A stretch of DNA of 24,008 nt, taken from the IMG/VR virus record IMGVR_UViG_3300037459_000059, positions 1-24,008 of that record; one strand, given 5' to 3'. This DNA comes from a virus. The notes below the pieces were generated by a model. That model made no database searches, was not told where the DNA came from, and saw only the letters and a list, made by a program, of their open reading frames with translations. How positions within the stretch are numbered: position 1 is the first letter of the stretch; the number at the start of each line of letters is the position of its first letter. Positions 3,166-4,111 of this stretch are shown in pieces. Position numbers and translations under genes: made by a program.

Positions 3166-3840
3166 ATGCAATGGTTCCGACTACACAACAAGCTACTCAA
3201 TGACCCTACTGTTCAAGGGCTATCTTCAGACCAATTCAAGGTCTATATCAATCTCCTTTGCTATGCCAGCTCGATAGATCGCGGCGGCTATGTCGGAACA
3301 TTAGATGAAACGGCATTCGCGTTACGTGAAACAATTGAGCATGTTACATCGTGTTTCAATGCGTTTCAGGGGGTCGGATTAATTGTTACAAATGAAACGG
3401 ATGATGAAACGTTTCAAATACCACAGTGGAAGAAAAAGCAATATGAATCAGATAGTTCCACTGAAAGAGTTAAGAAACATAGAGAAAAAGTGAAACGTTC
3501 CAAAACCGTTACTGTAACGCCCTCAGATACAGAAGCAGATACAGATACAGAACAGAAGCAGAAAGAGAGTAAGACAAAGCGTTTCACGCCTCCCTCGCAA
3601 AAGGATGTTGCTAATTACTTCTTTGAAAGACAATCACCGGCAGCGGTAGGCGAAGCCGATAAATTTATTGATTTCTACACATCAAAAAACTGGATGGTAG
3701 GGAAAAACAAAATGAAAGACTGGAAAGCATCAGTCAGAAACTGGATGCGAAAAGATGAAACCGATCAACGAACTAATTCCAAAGAGTCAACAGGCGACCG
3801 AGTATATCGACAGGCCACGGACACAAGTTGGGCTGATTAA
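3166..3840 (+). CDS. lambda O-like replication initiator
   Basis: A 224-residue protein with the layout of phage replication initiators. Residues 1-90 form a winged-helix DNA-binding domain ('MQWFRLHNKLLNDP', 'SSDQFKVYINLLCYAS', then a wing-like strand to 'IPQWKKKQYE'). Residues 95-140 are a highly charged linker rich in Lys, Asp, Thr and Gln. Residues 140-205 form a helical C-terminal domain with 'FIDFYTSKNWMVGKNKMKDWKASV', typical of phage initiators and DnaT-like proteins, expected to contact the helicase loader. The coding DNA for residues 46-84 carries the repeat cluster annotated as the origin. No strong Shine-Dalgarno site precedes the ATG, so expression may be low or controlled. The next gene starts 86 bases before its stop. 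Confidence 0.8.
   Translation: MQWFRLHNKLLNDPTVQGLSSDQFKVYINLLCYASSIDRGGYVGTLDETAFALRETIEHVTSCFNAFQGVGLIVTNETDDETFQIPQWKKKQYESDSSTERVKKHREKVKRSKTVTVTPSDTEADTDTEQKQKESKTKRFTPPSQKDVANYFFERQSPAAVGEADKFIDFYTSKNWMVGKNKMKDWKASVRNWMRKDETDQRTNSKESTGDRVYRQATDTSWAD
3306..3519. other. candidate replication origin with iterons
   Basis: Inside the O-like gene the hexamer TGAAAC or its complement GTTTCA occurs at 3306, 3327, 3353, 3363, 3393, and as the perfect palindrome TGAAACGTTTCA at 3405-3416: seven copies in 111 bases. Further copies lie at 3491 and 3581. After the cluster comes a purine-rich, A-rich stretch (about 3425-3490), then a CGTTAC-T-GTAACG palindrome at 3507-3519. This matches the lambda plan of initiator iterons followed by an easily melted asymmetric tract within gene O. 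Confidence 0.6.
3524..3564 (+). repeat. tandem CAGAtA/CAGAaG near-hexamers
   Basis: Seven head-to-tail near-repeats of CAGA(T/A)(A/G), the fifth one base short. They encode the Ser/Asp/Thr/Glu/Gln linker of the O-like protein. They may be a simple linker expansion or part of the origin lying beside the iterons. Confidence 0.6.
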
Positions 3841-4111
3841 CGAAAAAGACACCATTCTGATTAACTGGTTTTTTGCTCGACTTCAGGCGATCTATGGAAA
3901 CAAGTACATGACGGCCTTTCCTGATGACCAAGCCGTGAAGATGGCCAAGCGTGAATGGTCGGAAGAGATACTGCGAAAGTCGCAGGATGAGCTTGATCTG
4001 GCTCTCTCATCGGCCAAGCAGAAAATGATAACCGGCGACGCTGATGCAAAATGGCCTGATGTGGCTTATGTGCTGGGTCAGTGCGTCACTAGCGGGAGTC
4101 CATGGGCATGA
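3755..4111 (+). CDS. lambda P-like helicase loader (short form)
   Basis: A 118-residue protein resembling the N-terminal half of lambda replication protein P, which brings the host DnaB helicase to the origin. The similar block runs from 'INWFFARLQAIYGNKY' (about residue 36) through 'DQAVKMAKREWSEEI' and a helix ending 'DAKWPDVAYVLGQC', matching the P-family pattern of a helix, an R/K-x-W segment and a 'PSxxxFxxWC'-like end. Lambda P is about twice as long, so the domain that contacts helicase in lambda would be missing or replaced. Gene order right after the O-like gene supports the call. The only good start, ATG 3755, overlaps the O-like gene by 86 bases in another frame. A four-base ATGA overlap links it to the next gene. 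Confidence 0.6.
   Translation: MKPINELIPKSQQATEYIDRPRTQVGLINEKDTILINWFFARLQAIYGNKYMTAFPDDQAVKMAKREWSEEILRKSQDELDLALSSAKQKMITGDADAKWPDVAYVLGQCVTSGSPWA

Follow-up and report, generated by a model that had tools for sequence, protein, structure and literature searches.

A probable replication origin inside a phage initiator gene, with an unfamiliar iteron and a fixed-spacing CAGA array

Replication origins that lie inside the coding sequence of their own initiator are established for lambda-type phages (PMC7466680); for other phages, SPP1 is reported to carry its origin within the replisome organizer gene, and the same is inferred for 80alpha (PMC5499656). In lambda gene O, and also in P22 gene 18, iterons occupy the middle of the initiator gene and are followed by an opening region, and the gene for the loader P comes after O. 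RepA_N plasmids are arranged similarly. In pSK41 Rep and the pPR9 chimera, the sites bound by a winged-helix N-terminal domain are central in rep, the ori encodes the linker, and a separate C-terminal domain is host-specific; the N-domain and ori were exchanged as a unit in pPR9 (PMC5703833). A third related group comprises the Firmicutes phage replisome organizers (Phage_rep_org_N; Tuc2009 Rep, SPP1 G38P, and 80alpha ORF20).

We analysed a window of 24,008 nucleotides of viral DNA that contains an initiator gene with internal repeats (Table 1), which a sequence-only reading had described as a lambda-like origin. The layout does resemble that of lambda, with iterons in the initiator gene and then an array at which we infer opening. 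The resemblance does not extend to detectable initiator homology or to 18-bp iterons: lambda has four spaced iterons of ~18 bp, whereas the sites of the window run in both orientations as half-sites of 6-7 bp and palindromes of 12 bp, and the CAGA array of the window was not seen in lambda O. The window belongs to a known kind of origin, since origins inside initiator genes are established (lambda-type phages, SPP1, RepA_N plasmids, and probably 80alpha). As far as the literature was searched, its iteron, the distribution of that iteron, the CAGA array at fixed spacing, and the fact that iteron and array vary separately are new. A literature search for the 12-mers, mostly of open-access papers, returned no phage-origin paper and only other contexts, including the regulator Cra, and the papers covered yielded no experiment on binding, footprinting, or replication in this family. 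Given the family palindrome, the 5-nt spacing, and the codon uniformity of the tract described below, the window appears to hold a complete origin cassette, and we consider it highly probable from sequence comparison that 3306-3562 is a phage replication origin within the coding sequence of its own initiator.

Table 1. Features of the initiator gene and its neighbour in the window
Feature	Position	Strand	Remarks
Replication initiator gene, 224 aa, with the proposed origin inside	3166-3840	+	PF09681; PHROG replication initiation / DnaD-like loader families
Winged-helix DNA-binding domain, ~residues 1-92 (predicted)	3166-3441	+	AlphaFold2 model
Upstream iteron cluster	3306-3416		7 TGAAAC half-sites plus TGTAAC at 3343-3348 (-) and 3385-3390 (-)
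Perfect palindrome TGAAACGTTTCA	3405-3416		Seen in the sequence
Conserved basic helix SDSSTERVKKHREKVK, joint from winged helix to linker	3448-3495	+	A2 alignment columns; model helix 98-110
TGAAACGTTCCA, counterpart of the family core palindrome adjoining the array	3491-3502	+	Position in the family
Inverted repeat CGTTAC-T-GTAACG	3507-3519		Half-site nearest the array: right arm, TGTAACG (3513-3519)
Spacer GCCCT, 5 nt, from last GWAAC to first CAGA	3519-3523	+	Spacing kept in 41/42 genes
CAGA array	3524-3562	+	CAGA at 3524, 3530, 3536, 3542, 3548, 3553, and 3559; steps of 5-6 nt
Conserved C-terminal domain (WMVGKNKMKDWKASVRNW)	3580-3750	+	Many phages and prophages carry homologs
Putative P-like helicase loader gene; its start overlaps the initiator gene end	3755-4111	+	phrog_109, E 4e-7

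The initiator and its gene neighbours

The N-terminal domain of the initiator matches PF09681 (Phage_rep_org_N) marginally (E 5e-5; 23.7 bits against a cut-off of 23.3), the profile of the Firmicutes replisome organizers; its score against TIGR01714 fell below the cut-off of that profile. An AlphaFold2 model built on an alignment of the window and locus N-domains (A2) is a winged helix with a mean pLDDT of 86 and the element order helix-strand-helix-helix-strand-strand. The nearest PDB folds are the RepA_N initiators 4pql, 4pt7, 4pta, and 5kbj, together with the DnaD N-terminal domain 2v79; the matches to plasmid initiators are weak (E ~1e-3 to 1e-2, best 1.3e-3; TM-score 0.53-0.58). RepA_N initiators, the nearest but weak matches in fold, differ in the absence of a sequence-level family match (a Pfam search gave no hit to the RepA_N domain PF06970), in their binding site, and in context, the window being phage DNA with a P-like loader gene. 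PDB sequence searches returned nothing convincing for either the N- or the C-domain. No O-family match was found in Pfam or PHROGs, and BLAST against lambda O gave only E 9.7 over 12 aa. The N-domain is a predicted winged helix (Phage_rep_org_N; nearest folds RepA_N and DnaD) and no lambda O similarity was found; calling the gene lambda O-like is unsupported.

Within the basic helix that joins the winged helix to the linker, the A2 columns S-D, R-V, and R are invariant or nearly so. We propose that the C-domain is a helicase-loading or host-interaction module. This assignment draws on homology and gene context, since the full-length model, built from the single sequence, has a pLDDT of 41 and is unreliable. 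The neighbouring P-like protein (118 aa) reaches PF06992 only below cut-off, and at the matching position in Psychrobacter phage Y8A a replication protein P is annotated. The window differs from the Firmicutes organizers in its array (CAGA, not TAGA), in its C-domain, and in its partner, which is P-like where theirs is DnaC/DnaI-like. Searches of viral_contigs with the window N-domain or the P-like protein alone found no close relatives, and the nearest terminase to that of the window is from a Pseudoalteromonas phage.

Two features outside the initiator gene were also recorded. A PAPS-reductase-like gene (543-1448) lies near the replication module, and in Psychrobacter phage L414 the gene order is initiator, protein P, PAPS reductase. 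An imperfect 26-nt inverted repeat flanks the divergent intergenic region before a small HTH gene (2801-2903) and possibly represents repressor operators.

Half-sites and palindromes

TGAAAC or its complement GTTTCA occurs in the initiator gene at 3306+, 3327+, 3353-, 3363-, 3393+, 3405+, 3411-, 3491+, 3581-, and 3756+, so that 10 of the 21 copies in the whole window sit in these 675 nt; the copy at 3756 coincides with the beginning of the following gene and is probably fortuitous. The first seven are packed into 111 nt, as the sequence-only reading had noted, and form the densest hexamer cluster across the window. In 20,000 synonymous shuffles of the gene, the mean was 3.1 copies and the maximum 8, and seven or more within 111 nt were rarely reached (P = 5e-5). 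No hexamer of any kind reached seven per 111 nt in 2,000 shuffles, whether codons were shuffled within the gene or drawn from the codon usage of the window. One-base variants, TGTAAC, lie at 3343-, 3385-, and 3513+; counting these, the cluster holds 9 half-sites, a number matched by 0 of 20,000 shuffles. Both palindromes and the CAGATA repeats (3524-3562) described in the sequence-only reading are present as well. Its melting-prone tract fared less well: 3403-3502 is 66% AT against a shuffle mean of 63% (P = 0.12), so AT-richness was rejected as a signal, the AT content lying within what the protein demands. A sequence-specific CAGA array is the more fitting description.

We then asked how the palindrome is distributed among relatives. 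Since alignment A2 was too diverse as a search query, we used a closer set (A3), whose members were drawn from a palindrome scan and whose search patterns (W[VI]N[LI]LC.. and RQYKSD..) do not overlap the palindrome. This N-domain protein search gave 57 non-redundant genes, 43 of which carry TGWAACGTTWCA and 14 of which lack it, compared with 0.5 genes expected and a maximum of 4 in synonymous shuffles. Copies number 45 in the 40 kb of these genes and 1 in the 237 kb of flanks of the same loci, and they are found in all three reading frames. Half-sites beyond the palindromes are also in excess (126 observed, 48.5 expected). The intragenic origin with an unfamiliar iteron that had been read from the window alone is strongly supported by this comparison.

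Divergent relatives provide a further view. Between the window initiator and those of Pseudomonas phages D14H, YMC, and PP9W, similarity is confined to residues 2-130 (~39% identity), yet these phages carry the variant TGTAACGTTTCA twice in a gene of 58% GC; the second copy takes the place of TGAAACGTTCCA but in another reading frame. Two other members have palindromes before a CAGATA tract, CGTCACTGTGACG at 3345-3366 of L001 and CGTTACAGTAACG at 1040-1065 of L002, and their symmetrical base changes relative to CGTTACTGTAACG of the window suggest a shifting site specificity.

When 2.9 million viral contigs were scanned by DNA sequence alone, at least 119 had the palindrome plus GATACAGA; a scrambled palindrome gave 13 contigs and a scrambled octamer 4. 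The palindrome-bearing genes of 102 of the 119 encode a homologous N-domain. Among these, the 57 non-redundant genes show the palindrome in every one of the three codon phases, and their C-domains form many groups between which no similarity was detected. Judged by sequence, the iteron follows the N-domain while the C-domains differ, iteron specificity and putative loader domain being exchanged as separate modules. The coding region is shaped at the nucleotide level, very probably by replication. Origins of environmental phages are rarely located, and the signature of TGWAACGTTWCA, then GWAAC, 5 nt, and CAGA repeats should mark them in many uncultivated phages from sequence alone.

The CAGA array

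In 41 of 42 genes, including that of the window, a GC-rich spacer of exactly 5 nt separates the end of the last GWAAC from the first CAGA. This constancy could partly reflect protein conservation, since most members encode a TPPDTDT-like peptide in the same frame. Across relatives, the palindrome is followed by (CAGAN1-2)n at 6- or 5-nt spacing in all three codon phases. In the window, 3524-3562 is the densest CAGA stretch of the 24 kb on either strand, and its complementary strand reads as TCTG repeats. In 29 genes with the dipeptide form of the tract, Thr is ACA in 99 of 99 cases and Asp is GAT in 64 of 64, against 20% and 44%, respectively, outside the tract of the same genes. This uniformity is not protein-level, and because Thr is always ACA and never the equally AT-rich ACT, it is the sequence of the tract that is kept rather than its AT content.

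We suggest that the winged-helix N-domain probably recognises the TGWAACG half-site, both as single sites and as TGWAACGTTWCA palindromes. The resulting initiator nucleoprotein complex would set the last half-site close to the array, across the 5-nt gap from GTAAC to CAGA. The array would then be the opened, strand-specific entry region, at which the C-domain and the P-like partner may load the replicative helicase and primase. We infer these steps, from initiator binding and strand opening to helicase loading and the role of the array, by sequence comparison.

Two mechanisms for the array itself are compatible with an intragenic origin. It is possible, and we put this forward tentatively, that the initiator itself binds the array as single-stranded DNA during opening, by analogy with DnaA-trios or plasmid DUE repeats. 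DnaA and plasmid Rep proteins are established to bind specific repeated single-stranded motifs beside their duplex sites (PMC10797057), and the precise layout of half-site, 5-nt GC-rich spacer, and tandem 5-6-mers, as well as the invariant ACA codons, fits such an element. The basal origin of DnaA-box and DnaA-trio likewise consists of an initiator site, a short spacer, and tandem short repeats, but its initiator and repeat unit differ and the likeness is an analogy only. A single-stranded element explains the array layout at least as well as priming does; alone, it does not predict the change from CAGA to TAGA where Firmicutes-type genes retain the iteron unchanged.

That change is what the second mechanism addresses, a rather doubtful one in which the array supplies start sites for host DnaG, with the trinucleotide on the complementary strand tuned to the host (CTG Pseudomonadota-type, CTA in Firmicutes). 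DnaG is reported to start at CTG in gammaproteobacteria and at CTA/TTA in most Firmicutes (PMC5204125, PMC5429622), and the complements of CAGA and TAGA arrays contain CTG and CTA, respectively. CAG is enriched in the palindrome family (258 against 141 expected, z 15.8), while Firmicutes C-domain homologs are enriched for TAG (z 5.6) and TAA (z 5.8) and not for CAG (z -1). The five significant tracts of Firmicutes phage initiators hold 28 TAGA and 8 CAGA, arrays of TAGAGATAGAG occur in Firmicutes phages whose N-domain is related, and four Firmicutes-type loci (L089, L419, L423, and L425) combine the TGTAACGTTACA iteron, shared between some Firmicutes-type organizers and the window family, with TAGA arrays. 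Base composition alone is an unlikely cause, since palindrome-family genes at 38-42% GC still have CAGA.

Several observations weigh against priming. First, Vibrio phage homologs are TAGA-type or have no significant tract, despite their gammaproteobacterial hosts. Second, a bare requirement for CAG leaves the invariant Asp GAT unexplained. Third, the sampled Firmicutes phages are mutually related and independent samples with named hosts are few; among the four loci above, only L089 has a named host (Clostridiales), those of L419-L425 being inferred from protein type and GC. With named hosts, a [CT]AGA tract test was significant in 5 of 7 Firmicutes phages, few prophages, and 0 of 11 gamma C-domain genes, and genome searches across whole phyla did not yield enough loci to test the host link strongly. 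Fourth, in the linkers of L097, L110, and L128, which are among the Firmicutes and Bacteroidota homologs, top-strand ACTG/CTGA repeats take the place of CAGA/TAGA arrays; the priming idea as stated does not explain them. On these sequences, the host link of the arrays is suggestive, and it offers a testable connection between phage origins and host primase specificity. It is unlikely, though worth stating, that phages widely share an origin cassette whose single overlapping coding sequence holds both initiator sites tracking the DNA-binding domain and an array tuned to the host primase, the two varying independently; if so, the origin would record both initiator specificity and host priming specificity.

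Other readings of the repeats and other repeat clusters

Alternatively, a LacI-family regulator of the host, for instance Cra, could use the palindromes as operators, which would make the region regulatory. The E. coli Cra (FruR) consensus operator contains TGAAACGTTTCA as its core (PMC11157272), identical to the window palindrome. We rejected this reading, which is very improbable, on three grounds: the variants TGTAACGTTACA, TGTAACGTTTCA, and TGAAACGTTACA occur frequently among family members; single half-sites are many and the sites lie mid-coding region; and the sites follow one protein family while being almost absent elsewhere in the same contigs. That the repeats are a by-product of peptide motifs (VKRFR, xET, DTDT) and codon bias has next to no probability and is ruled out by the synonymous-codon tests: several copies do encode DET, RET, or NET and many family palindromes encode VKRF, but identical DNA is read in three frames and so encodes differing peptides, and 33 of the 34 VKRFR-coding genes use exactly GTGAAACGTTTCAG[GA], where CGT makes up 17% of Arg codons.

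Whether repeats persist in homologs, on which the sequence-only reading had staked its origin, depends on the domain that is shared. Whole-protein relatives, found mostly through the C-domain, usually lack TGAAAC, whereas N-domain homologs keep TGWAACGTTWCA. The former often have other short-repeat clusters, mostly just upstream of the C-domain: 25 of 123 homologs (the window gene counted) compared with only 3 when 283 other genes of those loci served as controls (P = 2e-11). The same cluster test gave low P values for lambda O, P22 gene 18, Tuc2009 rep, and 80alpha gp20 and not for 16 control genes; it missed TP901-1 rep, annotated as experimental, so its sensitivity is incomplete. One control ORF that is not an initiator (L047, 3788-4676) has 13 ACCTGAG copies within 200 nt. 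The initiator gene of Vibrio phage 1.061 (L087) has its own GTGACA-type repeats, GTGACAAACTGTCA, in the equivalent region (nt 260-345), a different candidate iteron alongside a similar C-domain.
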